Origin: Physcomitrium patens
Lineage: Eukaryota > Streptophyta > Bryopsida > Funariales > Funariaceae
Assembly (NCBI RefSeq): GCF_000002425.4
Contig: NC_037257.1
Coordinates: 10,196,983-10,260,982 of the forward strand
Length of the DNA stretch: 64,000 nucleotides
Direction: 5' to 3'
The translations under genes were made by a program, and so were the position numbers. Every line of letters starts with the position of its first letter. The stretch's first letter is position 1. The notes under the pieces were generated by a model that saw nothing but the letters and a program-made list of their open reading frames with translations, made no database searches and was not told where the DNA came from. Below, piece after piece: positions 4,812 through 62,178 of this stretch.

Positions 4812-5042
4812 TGTCACGGCCATAATCATGTAAGCTAATAATTACATATAGAAATAGGTAGAAGTAAGTAAAAGTAGGTAAAAGTAAGTTAATTCTATAA
4901 TATTTAATATAAAAGCTTCCTAGAAATTTCCTAGACGCTGCTTTGACTTCATAGGTGTCTTTAATTGACTTTTTGGATTAGAAACGTGGTCAACAAGTTG
5001 GCCATGTGTCACACATGTTATTAGCTTGAAGATCAAGCTAAC
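4812..5042 (+). repeat. Left LTR of element B, first part
   Basis: U3 segment that matches 25586-25816. It is cut by element A after CTAAC. Confidence 0.92.
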
Positions 5043-5055
5043 TGTTAGGGACATA

Positions 5056-5340
5056 TTCCTTAGAACTTTCTAGAGAGAGGTTTCTAGAACCTTCTAGAAA
5101 ACAAGCCTCTGGAACTTTCTAGAAGAGAAGCCTCTGGAACCTTTTAGAGAGAAGTTTCTAGAAGCTTCTAGAAAGGAAGTCTCTGGAACCTTCTAGAAGA
5201 GAAGTTTCTAGAAGCTTGTAGAAAGGAATCCCCTGGAACTTTCTAGAAGCTTCCTAGTTAATAAAAGTAGCTCGAGAAGTTTATAGAACCTTCTAGAAAG
5301 GAAGCCTCTGGAACCTTCTAGAAGCTTCCTAGTTAATAGA
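5056..5340 (+). promoter_or_regulatory. Heat-shock-element-like array in LTR of A
   Basis: Repeated GAAnnTTCnnGAA modules. GGAACCTTCTAGAAG lies at 5185-5199, with a further module at about 5309-5325. The block 5151-5174 contains five alternating GAA/TTC units at 5-bp spacing. This is the consensus bound by heat shock factor trimers. The same array is in the 3' LTR at about 19498-19782. Binding is inferred. Confidence 0.7.
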
Positions 5341-5369
5341 AGTAGCTCGAGAAGCTTCCTAAGTAGGAG

Positions 5370-5412
5370 TATATATAGGGATCGAGGCTGAAGAGTTCTT
5401 CAGTCTCGACAA
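5370..5412 (+). promoter_or_regulatory. TATA box and self-primer sequence in LTR of A
   Basis: TATATATA at 5370-5377. About 31 bases later, AGTCTCGACAA (5402-5412) would be the first bases of the RNA. It is exactly complementary to TTGTCGAGACT at 5540-5550, just after the LTR. Upstream, 5382-5393 forms a near-perfect inverted repeat with 5398-5409. Confidence 0.7.
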
Positions 5413-5539
5413 CACATCTCTTGGAGTTCTAGCTCACCTTTCTAGTGTTGTTCTTGTACTCATCTGTTTAATCTAGTTCTGCCACTTCTTCTTGAACTTC
5501 TTGTTAGATTTCAAGTCTGTATTTTGTGTCCATGACAGT

Positions 5540-5573
5540 TTGTCGAGACTACACTAACTTGAGATATCAGAGC
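5540..5573 (+). promoter_or_regulatory. Primer-binding region of element A
   Basis: TTGTCGAGACT at 5540-5550 begins 2 nt after the LTR end and pairs perfectly over 11 nt with the predicted RNA 5' end. Further on, TATCAGAGC at 5565-5573 matches part of the initiator-Met tRNA primer site but lacks the leading TGG and lies 27 nt from the LTR. Confidence 0.65.
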
Positions 5574-5817
5574 TAGTTCTTTCTTAGTAGAGTGTGGATT
5601 ACCCCTCTACTTAAAGGTATACTAGCATTTTTTAGAGGTTGCGGATTACCCTCCTCTAAACTGATACTTCTTCTGTTACAATATTGGAGTCTTATTCTTC
5701 TTAGAGAGAGTGGATTACCCCTCTTCTTGAAATTCTTAAGGCGTTTTATAGGTTGTGGATTACCCTCCTATAAACCAATATTGCCTCTTATAGGGTCATT
5801 TTTGTCCTTCTTTTAGA

Positions 5818-7247: not shown

Positions 7248-8578
7248 TGTCGTATTACGTGCTTTCCTGCTCGAGAACGCGCCGGGCGTCTGGCTGTAGA
7301 AGGTAGTATGGAGATCCGCCGATAGTCAAGCAGTCTATCAGTTTTTACTGCTGGAATATAAACGACTGCAAGAATACACCGTAAATCTTTACTGATGCCC
7401 TTCGACTGCTTGTCGAAGTCCTTTTTTTGCCCCAGCCGGTAGGTCTCTAGACGTTACAGAGAACCCCGAACAACCCAAACTGTTAATCTTCAATACCCCT
7501 TTGTACTTACGATCTTGTATCCACTGACTGTCCTGTTAGATTAACCCAATAAATTTCATTCACTCCGCATACTCAATCCTATAGACACCCCTTTAATCCT
7601 TCAATCACAGACCTAACTTGATTTTATAAAACAGTCAAGAGTATTCAAACCCACTTCATTTAAAAATCCCGATTCACCATTACAACACTGACTTCAGCAG
7701 CGATTGCCTCAGTCGTCCCAAAACTCTACGAAGAAGAAAAATCCAAATTCTATGTCTTTCCTTCCCCGACCCGAAGCATGAAGCTCCTCTCTCTAATTCC
7801 CTTGATCTTCTAAAAACCTCCAATGAAAAACCGAACTAGTAACCTTGCAAAAGCTTGAAAACTCGCTCCCCCCGATTCCCCCGAAAAAAAACCTCCCCCC
7901 CTCAAAACAATATCCCCCATAACCTTATCCTCTGAATTTCTTCAATCTTCTGTCTTAGATCCGGAATTGGCTCCCACCTCAAGCTTGGATCCGAAATTGG
8001 CTCTCGCCATCAAACTTTCTCCTCCGTTTTTACCTTTAAGAAATCCATTTACCGAAAACAACGTTCCCTGAAACGGCACAGAGAACAGGACAGCCTGAAA
8101 CAGAATCGAACCCCGTAATCGGGACCACATTGAGTCGCCTGACCAATTCAGGTCCTATATTGGGAAAGATGCCCGTAGTAACCTGGATGTTCTCGTAATT
8201 GGGTCAAATTGGTCCTCGCGTCAGATTGGCTGACCCGTAGTAAGACTTGGATTTCCCGTAATTAGACTACATTGGGTTGACCGGCCAATTCAGGTCTCAT
8301 ATTGGATAAGAGGACCCGGATTGGATTATCAAAATTGGATCCAATTGGCTCTTCGAACCCGTCATGTGAATTGGTCCTTCTCTTCCTGCTGACTCCCATT
8401 ATTGGAATCGAATGGAGCATTTCAGTATGCCCCGGCTGACTGTAACGGAGTGACTGAACCTGACCACTCAGTATTTGTACTGGAGTTGGTTGATGCTCCC
8501 AATATTCGAGGTAACTGAATATTAATAAAATTCCTCTTTCTTTTTATTTTCACTGTATACTCGTGTTACAACACGACA
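7248..8578 (-). repeat. 3' LTR of element C
   Basis: Matches 14561-15891 over its full length. In sense orientation it contains a degraded coding segment, including a stretch that matches 51839-52048 (for example FQAVLFSVPFQ against FEAVPFSMPF). Confidence 0.92.
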
Positions 8579-8640
8579 TCCACCCCCTCTGAACCTGTGC
8601 ATCCTCCGGTATGCACCAATTTACCCAATTGCTGTTTGAT

Positions 8641-9741
8641 TCAGAATATATCCCCTACGTCTTTGTCCAGTTCGTCTTCGTCACCTTCATTATCCATATC
8701 ACTTTCATCTTCTTGCTGCGGAATCTCTGTACCTTCATTAAGGTCTTCCATATTCATCTCTGCGTGTCTTCGTTTAAATATTTTTACTCTCTTCCCTGCA
8801 ATTGGTATTTTCAATTTTGTACCATCTAACTCCCGTAATGAGTAAGTCGCATTATCATGAACAGTTGTTCTAACATATGGTCCAAACCAACGTTTTGAAA
8901 ATTTCCGCAAAGTACTATGTTGATTATCCAGACTATTGTCATAAACAAGTACCCAGTCACCTTCCTCGATTGCTTTTGGTCTCAATCGATGTTGCTTATC
9001 GAATCGCGCCTTGTTTTGTAACCTTGCTCTTTTTAACCTTTCCAATGCTATCTGGACATCTTCCGTTCTTTGCTCCAATTGTCGAATCTTAATAGCCAGA
9101 AGTTCTTCTCTTGTCAATCCATCTTCCCATGGTAGCATACTCCAAGTAAGTACCTTTTCTTCAATCGACATAATTGGTTTTTGACCTGTCATAAGTTCTA
9201 CTGGCATATATCCTGTCACCGAACTATGTGTTGTTCGATCAGCCCATAATGCAAATGACAAAAGCCGTGGCCACTCTTTAACTTTCCCATTACAAGCTTT
9301 AACCAATGCTTTCACAATCGGCGGGTGATCGCGTTCGCTTTTCGCATTCCCTTCCGGATTATAAGCAATAGTCAGTGATAGTTTAACTCCACATTTTTCA
9401 AAGAACTTACGAGCTTCTTGCGCATTTAATTCTCCACGATCTGCAGTGATTTTCCCTACGCACCCGTAACGGCAAATGACATCTTCAAGCAAAAACCTAC
9501 AAATCCCCTCTGTAGATTTTGTCCTCAATGCTCTTCCTTCTACTAGATTTGATAAATCTTCACGAGCTAAAACCAAATATCTCATCTGCCATAACCCAAT
9601 CGGCATAATAACCAAATCAACAACCCATTTAAAATGAATAGCCAGAGGATACGTAGGATGAAGACCATCTCGATGTCGGATATTAGAATACGATTGACAG
9701 ATTTCACATGACTCTACAAATGAGAGCACATCTCGATACAT
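8641..9741 (-). CDS. pol: Integrase of element C
   Basis: 366-residue open segment. The catalytic triad can be placed at VVDLVIMP (first Asp), TADRGEL (second Asp) and AKSERDH (Glu). A GPY-like region follows (KRWFGPYVRTTVHDNATYSL). The tail is strongly acidic (EDESDMDNEGDEDELDKD) and there is no chromodomain. The part upstream of 9741 (AGHRGIWATF) belongs to the zinc-binding N-terminus and is separated by a stop. Confidence 0.85.
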   Translation of the reverse strand: MYRDVLSFVESCEICQSYSNIRHRDGLHPTYPLAIHFKWVVDLVIMPIGLWQMRYLVLAREDLSNLVEGRALRTKSTEGICRFLLEDVICRYGCVGKITADRGELNAQEARKFFEKCGVKLSLTIAYNPEGNAKSERDHPPIVKALVKACNGKVKEWPRLLSFALWADRTTHSSVTGYMPVELMTGQKPIMSIEEKVLTWSMLPWEDGLTREELLAIKIRQLEQRTEDVQIALERLKRARLQNKARFDKQHRLRPKAIEEGDWVLVYDNSLDNQHSTLRKFSKRWFGPYVRTTVHDNATYSLRELDGTKLKIPIAGKRVKIFKRRHAEMNMEDLNEGTEIPQQEDESDMDNEGDEDELDKDVGDIF

Positions 9742-9756
9742 ATTTTTCCATCAATA

Positions 9757-10578
9757 TCATTCCTTGAGTTTAGCAAAAGTAGCCCAGATTCCTCTATGCC
9801 CTGCCCATAAACTATCATGAAACTCCTTTAATAATTTTAGTTTTTCTTCCCTTTTGCCTATCACTCGTTGTGGCATCCCAATTCCTTTCTTCGGTCTCTT
9901 CCATAAGAATCCATCTCGAAGTAAAAATCCATATGCTTTTTTTCTTATTTGTTTGAATTTTTCTGTAGACCAATTTCCCTGCTTAGACAAGGTATTCAAA
10001 TAATGACCAATATCCAATAATTCTCCTTCATAAGATTCTTCAAGAAATAGCTTGTCTTCTCTGTTGAGATTCGATATTGAATAGAATTTCAATCCGACAT
10101 CATCAATGTCTTCAACCATTTCGTCCTCCCTCTCGTATCTTGCTCGAGATAGCATGTCTGCTACTAAATTGTCCTTTCCAGTGATATGCTTAAATTCTGG
10201 ATTTAGTGACTTAATATAAGCAATCCATCTCAACATTGGAATATTTGGCGTTGAACAATTAATAATCATTCCAAGCAATGGCAAGCAATCTGTTTCAATT
10301 ACTACTACTGCCCCAATCAAATAGTCCTTTTCAGCTTTCATAGCCGAAACGACTCCCCAAAGTTCTCTTTTGACTTGCGAATATGCACGCTGACGAATAC
10401 TTAAAACTTTAGCCCCAAATCGAACTGCAAGTCTACTCCCATTCGAATCATCTTGACCTACAGCCCATCCAACGACAATTGGACTAGCGTCTACAGTAAG
10501 AATCACTGGTCTATTGCACTTATAATCAACCTTCCTCAATATTGGAGGTGACATCAATAAACTCTTCAATCTTTGCAT
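9757..10578 (-). CDS. pol: RNase H region of element C pol
   Basis: 273-residue open segment in the same frame as the integrase. RNase H residues can be seen in ILTVDASPIVVGWAV (Asp), KRELWGVVSAMKAEKDYL (Glu) and VIETDCLPL (Asp). NLVADMLSRARYE marks the end of the domain. It continues into the integrase zinc-binding region. Confidence 0.85.
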   Translation of the reverse strand: MQRLKSLLMSPPILRKVDYKCNRPVILTVDASPIVVGWAVGQDDSNGSRLAVRFGAKVLSIRQRAYSQVKRELWGVVSAMKAEKDYLIGAVVVIETDCLPLLGMIINCSTPNIPMLRWIAYIKSLNPEFKHITGKDNLVADMLSRARYEREDEMVEDIDDVGLKFYSISNLNREDKLFLEESYEGELLDIGHYLNTLSKQGNWSTEKFKQIRKKAYGFLLRDGFLWKRPKKGIGMPQRVIGKREEKLKLLKEFHDSLWAGHRGIWATFAKLKE

Positions 10579-10818
10579 TGCCTGAATATGCCTTTATTTT
10601 CATTCAAATCGGTAACCTTTGCGTAACAGTTCATATAATGGATCCGCTATGTGAGCAAAATGAGGGATCCAGATTCAGTAAAATACACATGCACCCAAAA
10701 ACCTGCGAACCTCTGTTAAAGAACCACAATCCTCTTTCATCCTTCCAATTGCATCAACTTTAGTCGGATCTGGTTTTCTTCCGTAAGATCTGCATAAATG
10801 TCCAACAATTACAACCTC

Positions 10819-12039
10819 TCACACTCCAAATACGGACTTCATACCCGATAATGTAAGATGAACTTCTCCAAGCCGAGTTAAAATCTTTTCACAATCTTGT
10901 ATATGATCAACAACATATCTGCGACACCCCCTCGTATCTAAAGTTTCATCCTTGTCTCCTTCTTTGCACCCTTTTATAGGAACATCATCCAGAAAAGGCA
11001 TAGTCTTTTCCGGAATAAAATCTCTGAATACCTTATTCATCCCATTCATCATATGTGCAACCGAGTTGGTCGCGCCTTGAGGAAGAGTGCACATTCTAAC
11101 CAATCCAAGCGATATCCTCATCGTTGTCATATCTCTACTTCCTTCGGCAAGTTGAAATTGATCATAACCTGAATACAAATCACCCATTGAATAGATCGCC
11201 CTTCCAGCAAACGCCTCAGCAAATTCATCCACAATAGGTCCAATTCCTGCATTCCTGACAGTTACAGCATTCACCGGCTGCATATCTTGAATAAACCGCA
11301 GTGACCTATTCGTCTTAGGTACCATAAACCATCGACTAGAATACGGCGCAAATGAAGGTTCTAATATTTTCATCTTTATCTTTTCTTTCAATAGTTCGAC
11401 CAATTTAGGTAAATGTGCCCTCTGTATTGGAATCGGTCTTAGATTCCAAGGTACATGCGGTACAGTGAAGATAACCATAGGTGTTATAATATTTGGATCC
11501 ACACACCCAATTTCATGAGATTCGAAGGCAAACGATCTACCTTGTTCAGCCAACATCTTTTTAAAGCAAGTAATTTCCTCCGGCAATAAAGAACCATCAG
11601 AACCAATCTTCAATTCTTCAAAAGTCTCTTCAGTAAACTGATGTCCAATACTCATTGGATCTCTTAAACTTGCTTCTTTTGATGCTTCTCCCATTTGTTC
11701 TTTAGAATCCTCTGGTAATGGTCCGGCAACAGGCTTTACCTTCTTATCTGCCGTTTTATATCTCGTCTCTACTGTGACTTCTCGTACTTGAAAAGATTCA
11801 AGCATGGTATAAACCTCTCTCGAATGAATCTCAACAATCTTATCATTATCCCCTAACCCAATAAATGTAATCAATTCCAATGAATCTTCCAGCCCATTTT
11901 CTTCATAAACATCCAAAATCCTCTCATCATCTTGCAATGTACATATCTTGCGTAACTGTCCTTCAATATCATATAATCTTTTTCTTTCTTTTCTTTTAAA
12001 ATCATCAACTTTCTTATACATAATATTTCCATTCTCCAA
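10819..12039 (-). CDS. pol: Reverse transcriptase region of element C pol
   Basis: 406-residue open segment. RT motifs: SRWFMVPKTNRSLRFIQDMQ, then YSMGDLYSGYDQFQLAE (first Asp), LPQGATNSVAHMMN, and the catalytic box MPFLDDVPIKG, where Phe replaces the usual Tyr. It lies in the -1 frame relative to gag-protease. The frame change is near 12110. Confidence 0.87.
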   Translation of the reverse strand: MENGNIMYKKVDDFKRKERKRLYDIEGQLRKICTLQDDERILDVYEENGLEDSLELITFIGLGDNDKIVEIHSREVYTMLESFQVREVTVETRYKTADKKVKPVAGPLPEDSKEQMGEASKEASLRDPMSIGHQFTEETFEELKIGSDGSLLPEEITCFKKMLAEQGRSFAFESHEIGCVDPNIITPMVIFTVPHVPWNLRPIPIQRAHLPKLVELLKEKIKMKILEPSFAPYSSRWFMVPKTNRSLRFIQDMQPVNAVTVRNAGIGPIVDEFAEAFAGRAIYSMGDLYSGYDQFQLAEGSRDMTTMRISLGLVRMCTLPQGATNSVAHMMNGMNKVFRDFIPEKTMPFLDDVPIKGCKEGDKDETLDTRGCRRYVVDHIQDCEKILTRLGEVHLTLSGMKSVFGV

Positions 12040-12116
12040 TATACCAATAAAACTCGCATCAAAGGCACCTTCATCTCGCGAGAGTACCTCCTCTTTTGTA
12101 CCTCCATAATCTCGCT

Positions 12117-14489
12117 TTACAGTGGTACCTCCCCAAAATCCTTAAATCCTTCAACAATCTTTGGCAATGGTTTCTTCCTCAACCTATCTCGATTCCGTTC
12201 ATGGTTAGGAGGTACTGTTAGAAATTGTACAGCTTTCCTCCCATCTTCGCTCCGTACCCTTGCATAAGCAGAACCATCGTCAAGTACCTTTGTTTCCATC
12301 TGTGTTGCCGTGATATAAGATTGTCCTAAAATCAACGGATAAGACGTTGTATCTTAAACAAAGAAATGTTGCTCCGTCGCAACATCCCCAATCCAAATTT
12401 TGACATCTGGACAAGCTCCATATAATTCGCCTCTTGTGTTATTAGCCGCTCGTATTGCCCATCCATGTTCCATATCAATTGGCCATTTTTGCTTCTTATA
12501 AAGATCTTTAGACATGAGATTTATTTCAGAACCATGGTCGACTAAAACAACTATTGGTTCTTCTATATCTCCTACTTTCACCAATACTTTAGTAGTTGAC
12601 CTTGCCCAATGCTTTTGAGTATAATGGCTCAAAGTTTCTATTTCCTTGTCACTAGAATCTTCAAAACGTACTCGTTGATTGTATCCATTCTTTTCATTTG
12701 TTGGTTGCTTGTAACCAGTATCAACCTCTTCTTCATCTCTATATATTCTTGCATCAATAGCGTGACTCATTCCGGTTTCGTCCATTAATTGCCTCTTTTG
12801 CTTAATGCTGTCAATGATGACATCATGGAAGTCCTTCTTTGCAATTTCCAAGACTTCTTTCAATGTGAATTCTACCTTAGCGTTTAATATACGTTCTTTC
12901 AACACCCCTTTCAAATTTGTTGCCGCTTCAATGTCAGAAAGTAGCTTATAAGCAATTGATTTGCCCTTATCTTTTGTCTCCTTTGTTTTTTCTCCCAATG
13001 ATGCTGAGGTATCCTTTACAGGCAATTCTTGTGAAGCTGCCTCCCGAGCCTTGTCTCTTTGAGTTTGCCTCTTAGAAGAATTTCCTTCTCTAGTATCATC
13101 AAAATTTCCTCGTCTTTTTTCTTCCATCAAAGCTTCATGTTGGCTCTTAGCAATATATGCATGAATTGAAAGAGACTCAACAGGATCCTCCCAACCTGTT
13201 CTTCGTCATATTGTAGCTGCAGTTCTCAATAACGCTTCTCGAGGTAATTTCCCTTCTAGCATTGTAGAAACGGCAGAAGCCCAAAACTCACTAGTTTCCG
13301 TACTTCCACCAATTTCATCATCTATTCTAGCACCATAACTTGCACTTTCTCGTACTACTGTTTCATGCTCTTTTAAGTAATCTTGAACTAATGCTCTCAT
13401 TCCTCCCTTGCCAAAATTGGTTTGAAGAAGATCCTCCCTATCTTTCAATGCTATCTTCCCATCTTTCCAGTAAATAATTCCCTGCCGTATCATATTATTA
13501 AATTCATTGCAATCTTTTCTAGTGTGTGAAGCATCATCACACCAAATGCATCTTTGTACGTATCCCTGTTTTGAAACATTCTTTGAATTGTTTATAGAAG
13601 TATTCTCTTCAAGTCTTGCCAATTTGATTTGAAGATCTCGCATTCCTCGTATAATTTCTTCCATACCCATATCTGCTTTCTTTGACAAGGATGTCGAAGG
13701 TTGAACTGTAGGCATTGTCGGTGGTGTTGTACGTACTGGAGCTTTGGGTGCTTGTACTGTTTTCGGAATATTGCTCCTATCCTTCTTCCTTTCTTTTTTT
13801 GTAAGCAACCCCACCGCATCTTCAACGTTCTTCCACTTCGTTGTCAATCCTTCATCTTCTTCTTTGTCTTCAAGAAGGGGTTCTAATTTCTCTTGCAATT
13901 CTCTATTAGAAGCTTGAAGAAATAGATCAACTTTGTTCGGCTCCAATGTCAATTTTTCTACCTTCGATAATTGAGAGTACTGCCTCTCAAATTCCCTTAG
14001 TAGCTCTGTTGCTTACAAATTCTTATTGGGCCGTTCAATCCATCCCAGAAACAGCTTCTTAGTAACGCGATCAGCATCTTCCAAGAAATATTCGTCTTTC
14101 AATGCATGTGAAAAATCCTCCCATGAATTCCCACAACGATCCGTAATCGATGTAATGTGGTCCCTTATCTCCGGTATCGTGGCAAGTCCAAATAGTGCAA
14201 CCATTTTCTTCTCAGAAACCTGATTTAATTCCATTTCACGAACATAACATCTTAAATACCTTGAAATACTCCTCCCATCAAATTGATCAATTTTATTGAC
14301 CACTGCTTGCAATGCTTTGGTTGCCAAAGCTTCTTTTCGAACATTGCTTTGCTGTTGTTGCATTGATAATGAGAAGGCTTGAAACAAACTAGCAATAGAC
14401 GGATCCATGTGCATACCTTGTCCTTTAGAAGACTCCCCACCAGAAACTTCTCCCAAAAATCCTTCAAAATTTTTATTTTCGTTTTCCAT
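12117..14489 (-). pseudogene. gag: Gag-protease ORF of element C, broken by three stops
   Basis: One frame from ATG at 14489 to TAA at 12117. In-frame stops lie at about 14013 (TAA), 13206 (TGA) and 12354 (TAA); each lies where a CAA or CGA codon is expected. Gag has a Gln-rich stretch (MQQQQSN), a coiled-coil-like segment and a zinc knuckle CIWCDDASHTRKDC near 13530. The protease motif reads VVLVDHGSEINLM, so the usual D-S/T-G is D-H-G here. A conserved LILGQSYI follows the stop at 12354. Confidence 0.85.
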
Positions 14490-14542
14490 AAAAATAAAGA
14501 TAAAATCAACCGAAATCCAATACCTTCTACCTCAAGCTTTCA

Positions 14543-14560
14543 TGTCGGGTTCACCACTTA
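14543..14560 (-). promoter_or_regulatory. Candidate tRNA primer-binding site of element C
   Basis: On the minus strand, a few bases after the 5' LTR, TGGTGAACCCGACATG begins with TGG, as tRNA-primed elements do. A nearly identical site adjoins the 5' LTR of E (about 45971-45990). I cannot name the tRNA. Confidence 0.6.
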
Positions 14561-15891
14561 TGTCGTATTACGTGCTTTCCTGCTCGAGAACACGCCGGGC
14601 GTCTGGCTGTAGAAGGTAGTATGGAGATCCGCCGATAGTCAAGCAGTCTATCAGTTTTTACTACTGGAATATAAACGACTGCAAGAATACACCGTAAATC
14701 TTTACTGATGCCCTTCGACTGCTTGTCGAAGTCTTTTTTTTGCCCCAGCCGGTAGGTCTCTAGACGTTACAGAGAACCCCGAACAACCCAAACTGTTAAT
14801 CTTCAATACCCCTTTGTACTTACGATCTTGTATCCACTGACTGTCCTGTTAGATTAACCCAATAAATTTCATTCACTCCGCATACTCAATCCTATAGACA
14901 CCCCTTTAATCCTTCAATCACAGACCTAACTTGATTTTATAAAACAGTCAAGAGTATTCAAACCCACTTCATTTAAAAATCCCGATTCACCATTACAACA
15001 CTGACTTCAGCAGCGATTGCCTCAGTCGTCCCAAAACTCTACGAAGAAGAAAAATCCAAATTCTATGTCTTTTCTTCCCCGACCCGAAGCATGAAGCTCC
15101 TCTCTCTAATTCCCTTGATCTTCTAAAAACCTCCAATGAAAAACCGAACTAGTAACCTTGCAAAAGCTTGAAAACTCGCTCCCCCCGATTCCCCCGAAAA
15201 AAAACCTCCCCCCCTCAAAACAATATCCCCCATAACCTTATCCTCTGAATTTCTTCAATCTTCTGTCTTAGATCCGGAATTGGCTCCCACCTCAAGCTTG
15301 GATCCGAAATTGGCTCTCGCCGTCAAGCTTTCTCCTCCGTTTTTACCTTTAAGAAATCCATTTACCGAAAACAACGTTCCCTGAAACGACACAGAGAACA
15401 GGACAGCTTGAAACAGAATCGAACCCCGTAATCGGGACCACATTGAGTCGCCTGACCAATTCAGGTCCTATATTGGGAAAGATGCCCGTAGTAACCTGGA
15501 TGTTCTCGTAATTGGGTCAAATTGGTCCTCGCGTTAAATTGGCTCACCCGTAGTAAGACTTGGATTTCCCGTAATTAGACTGCATTGGGTTGACCGGCCA
15601 ATTCAGGTCTCATATTGGATAAGAGGACCCGGATTGGATTATCGAAATTGGATCCAATTGGCTCCTCGAACCCGTCGTGTGAATTGATCCTTCTCTTCCT
15701 ACTGACTCCCATTATTGGAATCGAACGGAGCATATCAGTATGCCCTGGCTGACTGTAACGGAGTGACTGAACCTGACCACTCAGTATTTGTACTGGAGTT
15801 GGTTGATGCTCCCAATATTCGAGGTAATTGAATATTAATAAAATTCCTTTTTTTTTTTATTTTCACTGTATACTCGTGTTACAACACGACA
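14561..15891 (-). repeat. 5' LTR of element C
   Basis: Partner of 7248-8578. The end reads TGTCGTGTTG in sense orientation. Confidence 0.92.
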
Positions 15892-18800
15892 ACGGAAGAT
15901 GACTTTTGCCACAAAACCACCCAAGAAAAAACCTAGTAAAAAACCTCGAAAAAAGAAATCCTTATTCATTGGAGCAAGAGCGTTTATAAGATCATCTAAG
16001 GAAGGCACTCCATTTGTCATTTATGCGGCTCCAACTACCGAGGAGAAGATCTCAACAGTAAGTATACCGGAGCGATATAAAGATTTTGAAGACGTGTTTC
16101 AAAAGTAGAACGCCGACATACTACCGGAACACCGACCATATGATTGTGCCATAGACTTGCAAGAAGGAGCATAACCACCTTTTGGCCCAATCTACAATCT
16201 ATCGCAAACGGAGTTGGTAGAGTTACGAAAGTACATCGACGAGAATCTAGCCAAGAACTTCATTCGTCATTCAAAATCATCATCTGGAGCATTCATCTTA
16301 TTTGTGAAGAAGAAAGATGGATCATTACGGATGTGTGTGGACTATCGAGGCCTCAACAAGGTAACAAAGAAAAATCATTATCCATTACCCTTGATTTCTA
16401 GTCTCTTAGAATAACTTGGACGTGCGAAGATCTTTACAAATATTGATCTAAGGGGAGCTTATAATCTTGTACGAATCAAGGAAGGAGATGAGTGGAAGAC
16501 AACATTCCGTACAAGGTATGGTCATTTCGAATATAATGTCATGCCTTTTGGTCTTACCAATGCTCCAGCGGTTTTCCAACATATGATGAATGACATCTTT
16601 CGAGAACACCTCGACGATTTTGTTGTCATCTACTTGGACGATATTCTAATATTCTCTAAAAACGAGGAAGAGCATGAGGAGCATGTTCGTTTGGTCTAAG
16701 AGAAACTACGCAAGCGAGGACTATATGCCAAATTAGAAAAGTGTTTATTTCACCAGACGGAGATGGAATTTTTGGGGTTCATTGCAACTACAGAAGGTTT
16801 GAAGATGGACCCCAAGAAAGTAGAAGCAATCATGTCTTGGGAGGTTCCAAAGGCGGTTAGAGACGTACAATGCTTTCTTGGTTTTGCTAACTTCTATCGG
16901 ATCTTCATCAAGAATTATTCTCAAGTTGCTGCTCCTCTCACTCGATTAACATGCAAAGATAAGTTGGAATGGGGACCTTTGGCGGAGAAGGCGTTTCAAG
17001 ATTTGAAGACAACATTTACTACAGCTCCAATTTTGGTACATCCAGACTTTACAAATGCCTTCTATTTAGAAACTGATGCTTCAGATTTTGCTTTGGGAGC
17101 TGTGCTTTCACAAATGAGTGAAGATAAGAAGCTCCATCCAGTTGCATTCTATTCTCGGAAGTTCTCTGCTGCTGAAATCAATTATGAGATCCACGATAAG
17201 GAACTTCTTGCTATAGTGGATTCTTTCGAAGAATGGTGTCTTTTTCTTGAAGGAGCTGCACATCCAATAACCGTATATACGGATCACAAGAATTTGGAGT
17301 ATTTCATGACGGCTCGAGTTTTAAATCGGCGTCAAGCTCGGTGGAATATGTCGCTATCTAGATTCGATTTTGTTATCACTTATCGACCTGGAAGGCAGCA
17401 AGGACTATCCGATGCTTTATCAAGGAGATCGTATCTTGCACCAAAGGCTGGAGAAGTAGCGTTTGATCAACAATGTACAACGTTATTGAAGCCAGAGAGA
17501 TTTCAACTTTGTGCTACTATTGTATCATTTGATGCTGACTTCCTAAACCAGGTACGTGCTATGACCATTAAAGATTCAGTAGCCATTGATATCAAGCAAC
17601 GTACCAATGACGACAAGTTCAAGGTGGAGGGAGATCTTTCATACTTTGAAGAGCGATTGTACATTCCAAAAGGACTAGTATGACTCCGAGTTCTTCAATC
17701 TCGCCATGATTTTCCAGCTGCGGGACATTTTGGATTCAATAAGACCTTGGAGCTTATTTCCCGAGATTTTTGGTGGCCCCAAATGTGGAAGGATGTGAAA
17801 GATTTTGTCCTCTCTTGTGACATCTGTTCAAGATCTAAGAATCCTCGGCATCGCCCTTTTGGACTTCTACAGCCATTGCCAATTCCACGTCGACCATGGT
17901 CTTCAATTTCTATGGACTTCATCACAAACTTGCCATCATCAAACTCATTTGACAGCATCTTTGTCGTGGTAGATCAGCTTACAAAGATGGCACACTTTGT
18001 TCCTTGTAAGAAGACATCGTCCAGTGAAGTCACAATAAGACTCTTTTTCGATAATGTGTATCGATATCATGGACTACCAGATGATATCATATCAGATCGA
18101 GGTACCCAATTTGTGTCAAAGTTTTGGAGATCTCTCTTTGGGATATTGAAGGTGGATATCAAGCTTTCTTCAGCTTTTCATCCTCAAACTGATGGCCAAA
18201 CGGAACGGGTGAACCAAGTCTTGGAGCAGTACTTACGATGCAGTATCAACTATCAGCAAGACAATTGGACTGCATATCTATCACTAGCCGAGTTTGCATA
18301 TAACAACACCCTCCATGCGTCGATTCAACAAACACCATTCTTTTCCAACTATGGGTATCATCCGAAGCTTGATTTATTGAGTCCGTCAACAAATTTCAAT
18401 CCAGCAGCTGAAGGATTTGTGAAGCAACTATCAGAGCTTCAAACTATGTTGAAGCTTCAATTACAATCCGCTCAAGAATCCTATAAGATGTCTGCAGATA
18501 GATTTCGGAATCCATCACCTACTTTCAAAGTTGGAGACAAAGCCTGGCTTCTTCGACGAAATATCAAGACCAAGCGACCATGTGATAAGTTGGACTATCG
18601 AAGATTGGGACCATTTATCATCCAGAAGCAAATTAATCCAGTGGCATACCGGCTGGAGTTACCGGCTTCTATGAAGGTACATCCAGTCTTTCATGTTTCT
18701 CTGTTGGAACCTTATCGAGAGTCATCTTTTCCTGAAAGAGTGCAATGTCCGCCACCTAGTATTAAAATCGAGAACCACGAAGAATACGAGGTTGAAAAGG

Positions 18801-18967
18801 TATTGGATTCACGGCGAAGGTGGGGAAAGTTAGAATATCTTGTTCATTGGTGCGGCTATGACATTAATGAGCGAACGTGGGAGCCAGCTGAAAATCTTGC
18901 GAATGCGCCATAAAAGGTACAGGAGTTTCATCAACGACATCCCGATAAACCTAAATCAATTCGATGA
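15892..18967 (+). pseudogene. pol: RT-RNase H-integrase-chromodomain of element A
   Basis: A single frame broken by stops near 16106, 16171, 16412, 16697, 17681 and 18911. The order of domains is clear. [17 protein letters not shown], then the intact catalytic box [10 protein letters not shown]. RNase H: FYLETDASDFALGA, HDKELLAIV and [11 protein letters not shown]. Integrase: zinc-binding HDFPAAGHFG and CDICSRSK, then catalytic MDFIT, SDRGTQF and GQTERVNQ. A GPF segment and VHPVFHVSLLEPY precede a chromodomain (EYEVEKVLDS, YLVHWCGYD, TWEPAENL). The piece 17747-18913 is a 388-residue open integrase-chromodomain. Chromodomains of this group are thought to target heterochromatin. Confidence 0.92.
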
Positions 18968-19484: not shown

Positions 19485-19979
19485 TGTTAGGGACATATTC
19501 CTTAGAACTTTCTAGAGAGAGGTTTCTAGAACCTTCTAGAAAACAAGCCTCTGGAACCTTCTAGAAGAGAAGCCTCTGGAACCTTTTAGAGAGAAGTTTC
19601 TAGAAGCTTCTAGAAAGGAAGTCTCTGGAACCTTCTAGAAGAGAAGTTTCTAGAAGCTTCTAGAAAGGAATCCCCTGGAACTTTCTAGAAGCTTCCTAGT
19701 TAATAAAAGTAGCTCGAGAAGTTTCTAGAACCTTCTAGAAAGGAAGCCTCTGGAACCTTCTAGAAGCTTCCTAGTTAATAGAAGTAGCTCGAGAAGCTTC
19801 CTAAGTAGGAGTATATATAGGGATCGAGGCTGAAGAGTTCTTCAGTCTCGACAACACATCTCTTGGAGTTCTAGCTCACCTTTCTAGTGTTGTTCTTGTA
19901 CTCATCTGTTTAATCTAGTTCTGCCACTTCTTCTTGAACTTCTTGTTAGATTTCAAGTCTGTATTTTGTGTCCATGACA
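19485..19979 (+). repeat. 3' LTR of element A
   Basis: Same length as the 5' LTR, three differences by eye. TATA at 19812-19819; self-primer AGTCTCGACAA at 19844-19854. Confidence 0.93.
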
Positions 19980-19984
19980 CTAAC

Positions 19985-20314
19985 TATGTGGCCCACATGT
20001 AGAAAAACTTGCCTTGTAAGTCAAGACATGTGCCCTATAAAGTCAACACATATTGGAGGTCCTATAGAACGTCGCCACGTAGCCCCTAGTTAGAGAGTAT
20101 ATATAGAGACAAGAGTGAAGGCTTTTTCACTCTTGTCAACTCCTTTCTTGCTTCTAGTCTGTTTCAAGGGTCTCTAATTTTCTTGTCTTTTGGCAATAGC
20201 CATTCCAGTTTCTCTTTCAATATATATACTTTTTTATATATATTTTTTTACCTCTCTTTGAGTGAATGCTCACTTGTTTGAATTGTTTTTTTCATCGAGT
20301 TCTTGTCCTTGACA
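19985..20314 (+). repeat. Left LTR of element B, second part
   Basis: Resumes B after the insertion of A and matches 25817-26146. TATATATA at 20098-20105. The predicted RNA start CACTCTTGTCAA lies at 20128-20139. GACAAGAGTGAA (20108-20119) and TTCACTCTTGTC (20126-20137) form a perfect 12-bp inverted repeat. The LTR ends CTTGACA. Confidence 0.9.
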
Positions 20315-20316
20315 GA

Positions 20317-20346
20317 TTGACAAGAGTGCACTTACAATATCAGAGC
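20317..20346 (+). promoter_or_regulatory. Primer-binding region of element B
   Basis: TTGACAAGAGTG at 20317-20328 is the exact complement of CACTCTTGTCAA at 20128-20139. Ten nt further on, TATCAGAGC (20338-20346) resembles an initiator-Met tRNA site lacking TGG. Confidence 0.65.
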
Positions 20347-21532: not shown

Positions 21533-24500
21533 GGACCGTGCAGTTGAAACCTAGTACAATTCCTAATGAAGGTCCTATCCTCTCCTCAGAACCCTCTTCT
21601 TATTTTATAATAGAATTATATTTAGGACCTAAGAATTACAAAGCCTTTGCTTTATTAGATTCGAGAGCCTCAGCATGTTTTTTAGATGAACAATTTGTTA
21701 AAAGTCATAAAATACCTTTTGTACAGAAAACTAAACCCGTACATGTAGAAGTCATTGATGGCCGTCCTTTGTCTTCTGGAGATGTCACTCATGAAACTCG
21801 CCCTATAAAAGTAATAATAAACGGTCATGTTAGCTACATAGCTTTTAACATAATTAAATCCCCGTCCAATCCAGTTATTTTAGGTTTATCCTGGCTAAAA
21901 AAATATAACCCTCGAATAGATTGGAATTCTCGTAAACTTGATTTTTTCCAAAGCATTATTAATAATTCTACCAAGTAAGTAAAAAGTTATAAATCTAGTA
22001 TAGTAAAACCCGTACTTATAGGTGTAAAAGCATTTATATATGCAGCAAAAGAAAGATCAACTTTTGCTATTTATGCTACACCTATTTCTGAAAGCATAAA
22101 GACTTCAAGTGGCATTCTAAGTCAATATCAGCATTATCAAGACGTTTTTGAGAAAAAGAATGCAGATATTCTTCTTGAGCATCACCCATATGATTGTTCA
22201 ATCGACCTCAATGAAGGAACTCAGCCACCATTTGGACCAATTTACAGTTTATCGCAAGATGAGTTGGCTAAACTCAAGACATATATTGACAAGAATTTAG
22301 CGAAGAATTTCATACGCCATTCAAAATCTCCAGCAGGAGCTCTAATTCTATTCGTAAAGAAAAAAGATGGATCTTTACGAATGTGTGTTGACTATCGAGG
22401 ACTCAACAAGATCACAATCAAAAACAGGTATCCATTACCTTTGATATCACGACTCCTTAACCAGTTGAATCAAGCTAAGATTTATACAAAAATAGATCTA
22501 AAAGGAGCATATAATCTAGTACGAATCAATGAAAGAGATGAATGGAAGACTGTGTTTCGAACCAGGTACGGACATTTTGAATATAATGTCATGCCTTTTG
22601 GACTCACGAATGCACTGGCTGCTTTTCAACATCTCATGAATGATGTATTTCATGAATTCTTAGACAATTTTATCGTCTCCTACCTAGACAATATCCTGAT
22701 CTATTCTAACAACGTCGAAGAACATGAAATACATGTTTGTCAAGTATTACAAAAACTTAGAGATGCAGGATTGTACGCCAAGATGGAAAAGTGTGTATTT
22801 CATACTACTCAAGTTGACTTTTTAGGATACATCATTTCAAATGATGGTCTCATGATGGATTCTAAGAAAGTCCAGACAATCATGGATTGGAAGATTCCAA
22901 GGACAATAAGAGATGTCCAATGTTTCTTGGGATTTGCCAATTACTATCAAATCTTCATCAAAGACTTTTCACGAGTTGCAGCTCCATTTACACGCTTGAC
23001 CAATAAAGACAAATTCCAATGGAATCAAGAAGCGGAAGCAGCATTTGAAGCCTTGAAGACATCGTTTGTATCTGCACCAGTCTTATATCGTGTTGACTTT
23101 TTCAAGGCATTTTTTATGGAAATAGACGCATCGGATTTTGCCTTGGGTGCAATTTTGTCACAAATGGGAACAGATGACAAACTTCATCCGATAGCTTTTC
23201 ATTCAAGAAAATTCTCAGCAACCGAGATCAATTATGAAATCCATGATAAAGAACTGCTTGCAATCGTGGATTCCTTTCAAGAATGGCGTCATTATCTAGA
23301 AGGCGCTTCTAGTCCAGTCACTGTGTATACAGATCACAAGAACCTCGAGTATTTCATGTCAACATGCATGTTGAATCGTCGTCAAGCTCGTTGGAGTATG
23401 TCTTTGTCAAGATTCGAGTTCATTATCACTTATCGGCCAAGAAAACAACAAGGTTTGTCCGATGCATTGTCTAGACGTTCTTATTTTGCACCAAAAGAAG
23501 GAGATGCAGCTTTTGAGCAACAAAGAATGGTCCTCTTGAAACCGGAGCAATTTCATCTCCGAGCAATGAAATCAACATTGACTGTTGATTCAACTTTTCT
23601 CAAGCAAATCCAGTCCAATATGTCCTGAGACCCTCTTGTTCATGATATTGAGAATAATTCTCCCAAGTCTGATGATTCTTCTAAGTTCGAGTTCAAAAAT
23701 AATCTATTATATTTTGAAGGACCCCTATATGTTCCAGAAGGAGAAGCACGTTTACGTGTTCTTTAAGCACGTCATGATTTTCCAGCAGCAGGACACTTTG
23801 GATATAATAAGACTTTGGAACTCATATCAAGAGATTTTTGGTGGCCACAAATGTGGAAGTCAGTCAAAGACTTTGTACAATCATGTAATATTTGTTCAAG
23901 ATCAAAAACTCCTCGTCATCGACCTTACAGACTTCTTCAGCCATTACCTATACCAGAACAACCATGGTCTTCTGTTTCTATGGATTTCATCACAGATCTT
24001 CCAAGCTCAAGATCTTATGATTCTATATTTGTGATAGTAGATCGTTTCACCAAGATGGCATATTTTGTGCCATGTACAAAATCTATCACAGGTGAAGAAA
24101 CAGCTAAGCTTTTCATTGATAATATCTATCGCTATTATGGATTACCTAAAGATATCATATCGGATAGGGGAACTCAATTTGTGTCGAGATTCTGGAGGAC
24201 CCTTTTCAAGATTTTAAAAGTGGACATAAAGCTATCTTCGGCTTTCCATCCTCAAACTGATCGACAAACACAGCACGTAAACTAAGTCTTGGAGCAGTAT
24301 TTAAGGTGTACCATCAATTACCAACAAGATGATTGGACAACCTTTCTGCTATTGGCAGAATTTGCTTATAATAATACGGTACATTCTTCCACGCAACAAA
24401 CACCTTTCTTTGCCAATTATGGCTATCATCCACGACTTGATGCTTTTGATTTTTCAAAAGTTGATAATCCTCCAGTAGAAGATATGGCAAATCTGTTGTC

Positions 24501-25585: not shown

Positions 25586-26146
25586 TGTCACGGCCATAAT
25601 CATGTAAGCTAATAATTACATATAGAAATAGGTAGAAGTAAGTAAAAGTAGGTAAAAGTAAGTTAATTCTATAATATTTAATATAAAAGCTTCCTAGAAA
25701 TTTCCTAGATGCTGCTTTGACTTCATAGGTGTCTTTAATTGACTTTTTGGATTAGAAACGTGGTCAACAAGTTGGCCATGTGCCACACATGTTATTAGCT
25801 TGAAGATCAAGCTAACTATGTGGCCCACACGTAGAAAAACTTGCCTTGTAAGTCAAGACATGTGCCCTACAAAGTCAACACATATTGGAGGTCCTATAGA
25901 ACATCGCCACGTAGCCCCTAGTTAGAGAGTATATATAAAGACAAGAATGAAGGCTTCTTCACTCTTGTCAACTCCTTTCTTGCTTCTAGTCTGTTTCAAG
26001 GGTCTCTAGTTTTCTTGTCTTTTCGCAATAGCCATTCCAGTTTCTCTTTCAATATATATACTTGTTTATATATATTTTGTTACCTCTCTTTGAGTGAATG
26101 CTCACTTGTTTGAATTGTTTTTTTCATCGAGTTCTTGTCCTTGACA
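25586..26146 (+). repeat. Right LTR of element B
   Basis: 561 bp, TGTCACGG to CTTGACA. TATATATA at 25930-25937; self-primer CACTCTTGTCAA from 25960. Followed by the GATAT duplication. Confidence 0.94.
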
Positions 26147-38559: not shown

Positions 38560-38969
38560 ATCAAGAAGTGAGAAGACATTACAATAGATGTGGCAATCAT
38601 TTGGTGGCGACATCAAGTTCAAAGTTATGGAGCTTAAGGTGGATTTTGTGACTAGGAGGAGTTTAAGACCAAGTTTAGGAATCAATTTTGGCCAATCAAT
38701 ACGGAGAAGATAGCACGCAATGACTTAACAAATCTTACACAAGATAGATTGGTATAAGATAATGTTTATCAATTCAAGTCCTTATGTCTCCAAATTGGTG
38801 ATGTTTCAAAGGCAAAGATGATGGATCAATTCCTACAAGGCTTGAAACCTAAAATCTAGTGAATTAAGGAATCTATAAACATTCAAAGAGGCAATTTGGA
38901 TTGCAAAGAAGGTCAATGCTAGAGATTTCAAAAATTGTAGAGTACAATGTTGCATTACGTATAGCCCAA
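38560..38969 (+). pseudogene. gag: Gag of element H, first part
   Basis: Decayed gag: NQFWPINTEKIARNDL, then VYQFKSLCLQIGDVSKAKMM and DQFLQGLKPKI. It is cut by element E at 38970. The zinc-knuckle part continues at 46972. Confidence 0.65.
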
Positions 38970-39949
38970 TGTTGTATTACGTATTGTTCAGCTTAAGAAT
39001 GTACCTGGCACCTAGTTGTACAAGGTGAGATTGTGTTTCACAAGTAGCCAAAAAATCCTATTAGATTTTATCCTTATGAGAAGAATACAATCTGAATTTC
39101 AATTCAAAAGTGCTTAAAAAACTCTTCTTAGTAGTCTTAACCATATATAAATCCCAATTACCTTGTTACTTTCATATTTAAGCAAATTAGATTTTTTTTG
39201 TAAGCCCCAATTCTAATCAGTGAGCTTTAACAAGCTGTAACATCTAATTTGATTATCCACTTAATATAGAATTTTGCATGCAATTGTCAATATAAGTCTT
39301 CTATATGCTGAAGAATTTTTAACCCAATCCAACTTATAGATTGTGAGAAAACCTCCAAAAATTACACTAATGTCACTCGGCCGCCAACTTGAAAAGTGAA
39401 GCAGAAATTCCAACAATGATTTCTCCCTTTCCAACCATTAACTTTGTCTTAAAATTGGTGTGTAGCTTGGTCTTCAAGTCGTCTCTAGAAAGAAATTCAA
39501 GCTAGCTTTCAAACCTTAACCTCCGATCTTTAAATGATTCCTTATTTTGCCCTAGGCCATTGTTTTAGTGGCCAAAGGTCTGATTTCGACCTTGTCTCAC
39601 AAATGGTCGACCCTCGAGTATCAATCTAACCTATCCTAAGGTGTTTTTAGCCCAATTCTACTCTCAACTTAATCCTAGTAATAACTATATTAATTATTTA
39701 TCTCTTTTAACTTGATTTTATTAATTTATGGTCTTTTTAAGGTAGTAGAAGAGTCTCTACAACCTAGAAGGTAAAATTAATAATTAACCTTCAATCTACT
39801 AACTATTAAGATAAGAAAATAATCTAAGAGATTTTTATAAAAGCCATGCTTAGATACCTCAAATTATAATTGAACTAAGATAATTAGATATTAATTAGAA
39901 ATTCAACTTTTATTACAATTTTACTATATAGTCATATTATATTATGACA
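38970..39949 (-). repeat. 3' LTR of element E
   Basis: Pairs with 45991-46971; the two share most words, for example TTGGTCTTCAAGTCGTCTCT and GGTCTGATTTCGACC. Confidence 0.85.
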
Positions 39950-40014
39950 TCCACTTCTTCTTAACTTGCGCATCCTTCGGCATGCACCAAATGAACCATA
40001 TATCATAATTGGTA

Positions 40015-45890: not shown

Positions 45891-45990
45891 CCTTCTTGCC
45901 TTCTTGCCTTCTTACACCATTAATTCCAAATAACCACAAATACAATCCAATACCTTCTACCCTAAACTTTCATGTCGGATTCACCACTTA

Positions 45991-46971
45991 TGTCATATTA
46001 CATGTTGTTCAGCTCAAGAATACACCGGGCACCTAGCTGTGGAAGGTGAGATTGTGTTTTACAAGTAGCCAAGAAACCCTAATAGATTTTATCCTTATGA
46101 GAAGAACACAATCTGAATTTCAATTCAAAAGTGCTTAAAAAACTCTTCTTAGTAGTCTTAACCATATATAAATCCCAATTACCTTGTTACTTTCATATTT
46201 AAGCAAATTAGATTTTTCTTGTAAGCCTCAATTCTAATTAGTGAGCTTTAACAAGCTGTAACATCGAATCTGATTATCCACTTAATATAGAATTTTTCAT
46301 GCAACTGTCAATGTAAGTTTTTTATATGTTGAAGAATTTTTAGCCCAATCCAACTTATAGATTGTGACAAAAACTTCCAAAAATTGCACTGATATTACTC
46401 GGCTGCCAACTTGAAAAGTGAAGTAGAAATTCCAACAATAATTTCTCCCTTTCCAACTATTAACTTTGTCTTAAAATTGGTGTGTAGCTTGGTCTTCAAG
46501 TCGTCTCTAGAAAGAAATTCAAGCTAGCTCTCAAATCTTAACCTCCGATCTTTAAATGATTCCTTATTTTGCCCTAGGCCATTGTTTTAGTAGCCAAAGG
46601 TCTGATTTCGACCCTGTCTCACAAATGGTCGATCCTTGAGTATCAATCTAACCTATCCTAAGGTATTTTTAGTCCAACCTTACTCTCAACTTAACCCTAG
46701 TAACAACTATATTAATTATTTATTTCTTTTAACTTGATTTTATTAATTTATGGTCTTTTTAAGGAAGTAGAAGAGTCTCTACAACCTAGAAGATAAAATT
46801 ATTAACTAACCTTCAATCTACTAACTATTAAGATAAGAAAATAATCTAAGAGATTTTTATAAAAGCCATGCTTAGATACCTCAAATTATAATTGAATTAA
46901 GATAATTAGATATTAATTAGAAATTCAACTTTGATTACAATTTTACTATGTAGTCATAGTACATCACGATA
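45991..46971 (-). repeat. 5' LTR of element E
   Basis: 981 bp; begins TGTCATATTACATG on the plus strand and ends ATCACGATA. Confidence 0.85.
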
Positions 46972-47677: not shown

Positions 47678-48219
47678 TATCATGGACATACATATTTATC
47701 TTGATATTTATTTAGATAATAAGAATAGATAGAAGTTAGTCAAAGTAGATAAATATAATATCTTGTGAAAAGCTTTCTAGAAGCTTCTTAATCATTGCTT
47801 TACCTTTATACATGTCTATAGGTGATTAATAGGTTGAAAACTTAACCAAAAAGGAGGCCGTGTGTCAATATGTTGACCACTTGTAATACAAGTTGGACAT
47901 ATGGCATATACCTAGGAAACTTGCTTTGCAAATTAGACATATATCCTACAAGTTGGATGCATATTAAAGGTTCTATAGCATATCACCACATATTCTTTAA
48001 TTAAGTAGTATATATAGAAGCAATAGTGAGGCTTTCTTCACTCTTGTCAAGTCCTTTGTTGGTTTTTACTCTAGTTTCAAGAGTCTTATGTTTTCTAGTC
48101 TTTGGCAATAGCCATTCCAATTTTTTTTTGAATATACATACTTTCTTCTATTTTTTCATTTTCTTTTTGACACAAATTCTATGACTTTATGCATCTTCTT
48201 TGACTTTGTGTCCTTGATA
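47678..48219 (+). repeat. Left LTR of element G
   Basis: ACTCTTGTCAA at 48040-48050, about 30 bases after the TATA run, pairs with TTGACAAGAGT at 48222-48232, 2 nt after the LTR. Confidence 0.85.
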
Positions 48220-48428
48220 TATTGACAAGAGTATACATAAAATATCAAAGCTTTGACTTTTCTTGATTAAGAGTGGATTATCTCTTTTTCTTGATAAGAC
48301 ATAAGCATATTAGAAGTTATGGATTACCCTCTTCTAAATTGATATTATTTCTAGATTATTTATTTATTTCTTGATTCTTGAGTATTGTATTTTGTGAGAA
48401 TAGACACCTTTCTTTTTATTGTACTAGT

Positions 48429-61436: not shown

Positions 61437-61966
61437 TATCACGGACATACATATAATTACCTATATGAATAGATAAAAGTATGTAAAAGTAGGTTAATTG
61501 TGTAATATCTTCTAGAGAAGCTTCTTAGAAGCTTCATAGACGCTGCTTTGACTTTATAGGAGTCTATAGTTGATTTTTAGGTTAGAAACTTGGTCAACAA
61601 GTTAGCCATGTGCCACACATGTTGGAAGCTTAAAGAACAAGCTAACTACGTGGTCCATCCATAGAAAACTTGCCTTGCAAGCAAAGGCATGTGGCCTAGA
61701 AAGTCAACATATATTGGAGGTCTTATAGAACATCGCCACGTGGCTTCTAGTTAGATAGTATATATAGAGGCAAGAGTGAAGCCCTCTTCACTCTTGTCAA
61801 CTCCTTTCTTGCTTCTAGTCTAGTTTCAAGGGTCTCTAGTTTTCTTGTATTTTGGCAATAGCCATTCCAGTTTCTTTCTTAATATACATATTTCTATTTT
61901 GTCCTATTTCTTTTTGAGAAAAGTCTCACTTACTCTTTAGCTTTCATCGAGTTCTTGTCCTTGACA
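61437..61966 (+). repeat. 5' LTR of element I
   Basis: 530 bp, TATCACGG (first G mutated) to CTTGACA. ACTCTTGTCAA at 61790-61800, after the TATA run, pairs with TTGACAAGAGT at 61969-61979. TATCAGAGC lies at 61990-61998. Confidence 0.88.
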
Positions 61967-62178
61967 GATTGACAAGAGTACACTTACAATATCAGAGCTT
62001 TATCTTTTCTTGATTAAGAGTGGATTACCCCTTTTTCTTGATAAGACATAAGCGCATTTGAAGTTGCGGATTACCCTCTTTTAAACTGATATTGTTCTTA
62101 GTATTTTCTTTGTTATCAATTCCTCTCTTCTATTTGTTTTGAGCGTTGTTAGACATCTTCTCTTTTCTAAGTGCTACT

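Follow-up and report, generated by a model that had tools for sequence, protein, structure and literature searches.

Elements in the window

The window, a 64,000-nucleotide stretch of the Physcomitrium patens genome (C5:10196983-10260982), contains nested long terminal repeat (LTR) elements, in which element A is inserted into the 5′ LTR of element B. The 5′ LTR of A (TG...CA) occupies 5043..5537 of the plus strand and its 3′ LTR lies at 19485-19979; the two are 99.4% identical and the element has a 5-bp target site duplication (TSD), CTAAC. The 5′ LTR of B is split by A into two parts on the plus strand, 4812..5042 and 19980..20314, and the 3′ LTR of B is located at 25586-26146, with the TSD GATAT. 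Among the open reading frames (ORFs) of A there are matches to gag, RNase H, integrase, a Tf2-1-like SH3 domain and a chromodomain. Domain matches on the plus strand place the integrase zinc finger and core, the SH3 domain and the chromodomain of A at 17747..18913 and, within one ORF of B, reverse transcriptase and RNase H at 22264..23628. With a chromodomain at the integrase end and reverse transcriptase and RNase H of the Ty3/gypsy type, the A- and B-type elements are chromodomain Ty3/gypsy elements. Protein matches to the elements include one named Absidia glauca.

The features of A that bear on priming lie on the plus strand, around the end of the 5′ LTR. The TATATATA box at 5370..5377 is situated 32 nt upstream of the predicted +1, and the predicted RNA 5′ end or self-primer (+1 to +11) is found at 5402..5412, with C and A at -1 and +1, respectively. 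A U3 arm at 5382..5392 (-20 to -10) is the complement of 5399-5409. The LTR end is separated by a spacer of 2 nt (5538..5539) from the self-primer-binding site (self-PBS, 5540..5550), which is complementary to the primer. The next base, 5551, is position 12 counted from the PBS start; it is hypervariable in a sister subfamily and is a candidate run-off scar. Two leader modules follow, each with two hairpins that carry GGATTACC loops: module 1 at 5565..5666, closed by a stem of TATCAG (5565-5570) and CTGATA (5661-5666), and module 2 at 5679..5783, closed by CAATATTGG (5679-5687) and CCAATATTG (5775-5783). Farther upstream, the U3 of A (5063-5357) includes degenerate internal repeats with many TTCTAGAA-like motifs and a 76% internal match.

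The minus strand of the window holds two related gypsy-like elements, 7248-15891 and 38969-46964. Their LTRs measure 1331 and about 975 bases, respectively, and their PBS, of the TGGTGAA type, lies 3-4 nt beyond the LTR. A chromodomain match is absent from the four ORFs examined in the element at 7248-15891.

Pairing between the predicted RNA 5′ end and the PBS

The original prediction held that four elements of the window, A, B, G and I, carry an LTR stretch of 11-12 nt complementary to the site next to the LTR. Coordinates and letters of all four pairs are borne out by the window sequence: besides A, the self-primer and self-PBS are at 20129..20139 and 20317..20327 in B, at 48040..48050 and 48222..48232 in G, where the pairing is present and the LTR end has decayed, and at 61790..61800 and 61969..61979 in I, all on the plus strand. 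A PBS adjoining the 5′ LTR and complementary to an LTR stretch of at least 10 nt is present. As to the length, an 11-nt core is common to all four, whereas the 12th pair, supplied by 20128 with 20328, exists in B and is absent from A, G and I.

The window was also scanned blind for complements of 10 nt that have a TATA some 31 nt upstream and a CA directly before the second arm. The plus strand gave eight rows, seven of them from A, B and I and one at an unrelated place near 54126; the minus strand gave three, from two unrelated places, and the reversed-letter control gave 1 and 1. On the minus strand, an 11-nt complement (37757-37767/37126-37136) with well-placed TATA and TGACA falls inside a stretch resembling the pol of B and is probably due to chance. 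Match length alone is not decisive, because LTRs shuffled 500 times per element reach complements of 9 (A), 11 (B), 12 (G) and 10 nt (I), from an input in which the LTR of B was 6 bases over-long at its start and the LTR end of D, used among the controls, may be one base off. The weight rests instead on the position after the TATA box and on recurrence across copies.

For recurrence, the genome (470.4 Mb, 101 contigs) was scanned with the pattern TGACANNTTG-N8..30-TATCAGAGC, in which the LTR end, the three opening bases of the PBS and a motif farther downstream are fixed and the LTR arm is left free. It gave 2499+2394 = 4893 matches, and the backward-read control gave 0. From 76 loci, most of them collected with this pattern, 72 oriented copies were obtained; the other four, fetched without the downstream motif, missed the full pattern. 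In plants, the RNA start is expected about 32 nt past the TATA box. When the best complement of the PBS was sought within 560 nt upstream, it was found 31-32 nt past TATATA in 70 of the 72 junctions. One of the two exceptions has an altered box (30 nt) and the other an altered sequence between box and arm (37 nt). The distance from arm to PBS ranges from 134 to 188 nt. Pairing is perfect in 46 junctions, one base is non-complementary in 20 and two are in 6, and the second-best complement site reaches at most 9/11.

Register was examined in 83 copies, some of them from the window, that comprise 41 A-type and 42 B-type copies; a PBS matching one type at 8/11 bases or more was required, so conserved copies are favoured in this set. 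Primer and PBS form 872/913 Watson-Crick cells in register; sliding one against the other by 1-4 bases lowers the count to between 50 and 282, or 31% at the most. The pairing ends sharply on both sides: a 12th pair on the primer 5′ side is present in 17 of the 83 copies and absent in 66, and on the 3′ side it is present in a single copy and absent in 82. The arm starts with A after C, the base at -1 being T in 5 of the 41 A-type copies.

The U3 arm and other readings of the complementarity

A third complementary stretch, the arm directly upstream of the predicted +1, forms pairs with the bases from -3 to +9, and the register is identical in the A and B types. Across the 83 copies, the U3:R cells are Watson-Crick in 862/996 and paired in 934 when G-U is included. 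The hairpin energy is predicted at -18.9 kcal/mol in A and -18.8 in B, and the isolated primer:PBS duplex is predicted to be weaker (-16.2 and -14.4 kcal/mol, respectively). An RNA that starts at +1 contains the U3 arm only in its 3′ LTR. The U3/R hairpin may thus act as a switch between the two ends, by masking the primer copy at the 3′ end, and would offer an answer to the question of why the primer copy in the 3′ LTR does not compete. A promoter role of the palindrome at the DNA level is conceivable as well.

The same palindrome raises the question of whether the PBS merely resembles the R arm as a by-product of promoter symmetry, with no role in priming. The palindrome is real and its register is identical in A and B, as such a by-product would have it. 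The R:PBS pairing is nevertheless tighter (872/913 against 862/996 Watson-Crick), and the PBS is fixed at 2 nt from the LTR, outside both the LTR and the promoter; we regard this origin of the complementarity as extremely improbable. Service of the PBS to a tRNA or half-tRNA, the LTR match being of other origin, finds a point in its favour downstream, where TATCAGAGC lies 10-14 nt past the self-PBS in the collected copies. This motif has 9/12 of the bases of TGGTATCAGAGC, which we take to be the initiator-Met PBS sequence, and TGGTATCAGAGC is complete in one subfamily, 10 nt past the self-PBS (L029, L043 and L059, 3/72 copies). These counts do not give the frequency of TATCAGAGC, because the motif was built into the search pattern; four of eight loci fetched without it missed the full pattern. 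The motif is, however, at least 23 nt from the LTR end, and TATCAG pairs with CTGATA to close a leader module whose sister module has a closing stem altered on both sides. On these grounds, TATCAGAGC is better read as leader structure, and a fossil tRNA-iMet PBS in TATCAGAGC/TGGTATCAGAGC was rejected because of the TATCAG/CTGATA stem. The site that does adjoin the LTR starts with TT and not TGG, in 100/100 rows of a search that left the site free; a PBS starting with TGG 0-5 nt from the LTR was found in none of A, B, G and I and in 0/100 rows. The tRNA-type elements C and D of the window differ: their PBSs are of the TGG type, and no self-complement of at least 6 nt starting 0-5 nt past the LTR was found in them. 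Priming by a tRNA or half-tRNA is accordingly judged very improbable.

Compensatory change and decay

The primers of A and B differ at positions 2 (G/C), 6 (C/T) and 8 (A/T), and the PBS compensates all three; positions -14, -18 and -20 of the U3 arm covary with primer positions 2, 6 and 8 in the same A/B comparison. The compensatory change claimed in the original prediction is therefore genuine at these three sites and modest in extent, since it amounts to one lineage transition between A and B. The proposed alignment of family members was carried out for one subfamily of 49 copies, 19 of which had been fetched for a variant PBS and one for the bases following the PBS. It gave three paired double changes against 56 one-sided changes, the majority C>T and G>A. 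A hand estimate from single-site frequencies expects about 2.3 doubles from independent change, so the three doubles are close to the chance level of independent decay, and covariation inside the subfamily was dropped as support. The pattern within the subfamily is decay, with no further compensation. Retention of one arm without the other, named in advance as evidence against self-priming, is seen in individual copies, where one-sided changes dominate, and is not a property of the whole family.

Among the one-sided changes, PBS position 6 has changed, almost always G>A, in 10 steps in a set of 50 copies, with no matching change in R, and in 9 steps in 70 copies of the subfamily s1. We also note that in s1 the adjacent C, which belongs to the same CpG, is altered less often (7 steps in the 50 copies and 5 in the 70). 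A PBS change common to L087 and L107 was considered as an inherited mismatch and rejected; the two copies differ at 41/558 sites, and the change is therefore probably independent.

The variable base after the PBS

Position 12, the base directly past the PBS and opposite the base before the predicted +1, shows unusual variation. Across 100 rows of s1 it is T in 63, A in 18, G in 14 and C in 5, with 32 transversions; none of the 14 other free columns has more than 5. On a tree of 70 s1 copies, built without the PBS region, position 12 requires 20 steps, 15 of which are transversions. The other 473 columns of this set require 0-3 transversion steps (mean 0.42 over all 474), about 20 of them having been fixed by the search pattern (LTR end TGACA, positions 14-28) and the others free. 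The adjoining position 11 is invariant. The 70-copy set excluded 20 copies, and 40 of the 70 were the next matches listed in the 100-row s1 search; in a set of 50 copies that includes the 20 excluded, position 12 requires 13 steps, 10 of them transversions, and the next column 5. Shuffling of the labels gave a mean of 25.9 steps and a minimum of 21 in 300, so that, with 20 observed, position 12 is nearly, although not fully, independent of descent.

In the 41 A-type copies, position 12 takes 11 steps (mean 1.7), and its 4 transversion steps tie for the highest of 567 columns, U3 columns having 3-4. Against a general pattern, it is solely A or G in the 42 B-type copies, with 5 steps and 0 transversions, and position 13 takes 7 steps. 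Elsewhere, it is A in 6/6 copies of s4, and A and G only in s2 (n=6) and s3 (n=5).

On running off the end of a template, reverse transcriptase can add a base, mostly a purine, that has no template. Position 12 may accordingly be a run-off scar, in which, with every transposition, the enzyme reaches the (probably capped) 5′ end of the primer and adds an untemplated, mostly purine base that is fixed at second-strand transfer; we put this forward tentatively, at slightly less than an even chance. Position 12 could instead be an ordinary relaxed or mutable site that bears no mark of RNA-end copying, which we consider quite possible though not the better bet. The B-type copies, where change is confined to A and G, transversions are missing and position 13 changes more, agree with such a site, as do the invariance of s4 and the A/G-only state of the small s2 and s3 samples. 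The s1 copies speak against it, since all 473 other columns stay at 3 transversion steps or fewer, and position 11 is invariant. Change confined to A and G in lineages that were already A or G fits run-off, in an explanation that is post hoc. Start-site slippage was also considered as the cause and set aside, as the base at -1 and position 12 do not track; T at -1 occurs in five A-type copies, and position 12 is A in one of these. Were the run-off scar real, the precise 5′ end of the RNA of self-primed elements could be read from genome sequence alone, and the PBS would be shown to be copied from the primer.

Relationship to known elements

In Tf1, the first 11 nt at the RNA 5′ end pair with a PBS that adjoins the LTR. 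Tf1 and Tf2 of Schizosaccharomyces pombe, Tj1, Tosmo and Tcry are chromodomain Ty3/gypsy elements whose RNA 5′ end pairs with an LTR-adjacent PBS, as is the case here with a predicted 5′ end; the elements described here differ from the Tf1 group in their moss host and in that the side duplexes of the pretzel are only partly found. The Tf1 pretzel has been described, and Tf1/sushi elements noted in non-seed plants, in the accessible part of PMC10085805; Tj1 is treated in PMC4600332. The U3/R hairpin and the double-hairpin leader modules receive no mention for Tf1 or Tj1 in the accessible parts of these two papers.

Judged by copy number and chromodomain, the elements are very probably RLG1 of P. 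patens, for which the available text of PMC7466625 (2020) reports 5092 complete copies, a chromodomain integrase and transcription in protonema. This compares with the 4893 junction matches found here, and the chromodomain integrase is common to both. The term PBS is absent from that text. The original prediction stated that no land-plant case had been described, which is incorrect: according to the accessible part of Neumann 2019 (PMC6317226), self-priming was predicted for the majority of Tcn1 chromoviruses, in mosses and club-mosses. The plant Tcn1 clade in that source thus resembles the present family in host group, chromodomain and predicted self-priming. The same source takes as its criterion a complement that begins 0-5 bp past the LTR and is 10 bp or longer, and predicts self-priming for the TAR elements too, which belong to another superfamily (Ty1/copia). 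In contrast to its complement per element, pairing, slid controls, start geometry and variation are counted here over many copies. Tcn1-like elements were placed in Physcomitrella (PMC3350952, as far as its text is accessible), and for SM-Tcn1 of Selaginella the portion of Novikova 2010 (PMC2864245) consulted reports that neither tRNA priming nor self-priming was found. The accessible parts of PMC3601003 and PMC12786077 contain nothing further on moss elements. A literature search with wordings not targeted to these features, and with subscription papers mostly outside its range, returned no U3/R hairpin or variable base after a self-PBS in the texts as available. So far as this range of sources indicates, the three-way complementarity, the hypervariable position past the PBS and the double-hairpin modules appear to have gone undescribed before.

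Proposed mechanism

Self-priming from the RNA 5′ end remains the best explanation of the 11-nt pairing in register, without being the first case in a land plant. The elements are very likely Tf1/sushi-type (Tcn1-clade) chromoviruses, most probably RLG1, that use the initial 11 nt of their own RNA as the primer of reverse transcription. The transcript would start at the A about 32 nt past the TATA box, a site to which the TATA spacing, the C/A at -1/+1 and the hypervariable position 12 point indirectly, and the first 11 nt, whose complementarity is evident, would fold onto the PBS 2 nt beyond the LTR. By analogy with Tf1, RNase H would cut after nucleotide 11, and the released 11-nt primer would start minus-strand strong-stop DNA. 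The hypervariable column suggests that plus-strand synthesis later copies through the primer as far as its 5′ end; this would restore the PBS and leave position 12 variable. Where the RNA runs through the 3′ LTR, the second primer copy would be held in the hairpin by the U3 arm, leaving the true 5′ end as the only one free to prime. The run-off scar and the U3/R masking hairpin, if both are true, would form a two-ended mechanism for choice of the right primer. A model moss would then offer a self-primed element with many copies and natural transcription, in which Tf1-type priming could be tested directly in a land plant.

Folding of the leader

When A was folded without constraints, the primer:PBS helix and both leader modules were obtained (z -2.97, 0/100 shuffles as good). 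In the minimum-energy folds of individual copies, the helix is present in 35/42 B-type and 15/41 A-type copies and missing in 26/41 A-type copies. The two extra duplexes of the three-duplex Tf1 pretzel were partly found, and the downstream one of A alone stands out: shuffles were as good in 2.3% for the downstream and 94% for the upstream side duplex of A-type copies, and in 45% and 13.5%, respectively, for B-type copies, with 22-59% in control stretches.

The leaders of A-type elements contain two double-hairpin modules and those of B-type elements one. Several pairs in the stems of module 2 are altered on both sides across the 41 A-type copies, and the consensus fold of a joint alignment of A and B (79 distinct rows) retains parts of the modules and not the closing stem. 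The modules at 5565-5783 recur at the same place in related loci and are a candidate Gag-binding or packaging signal.
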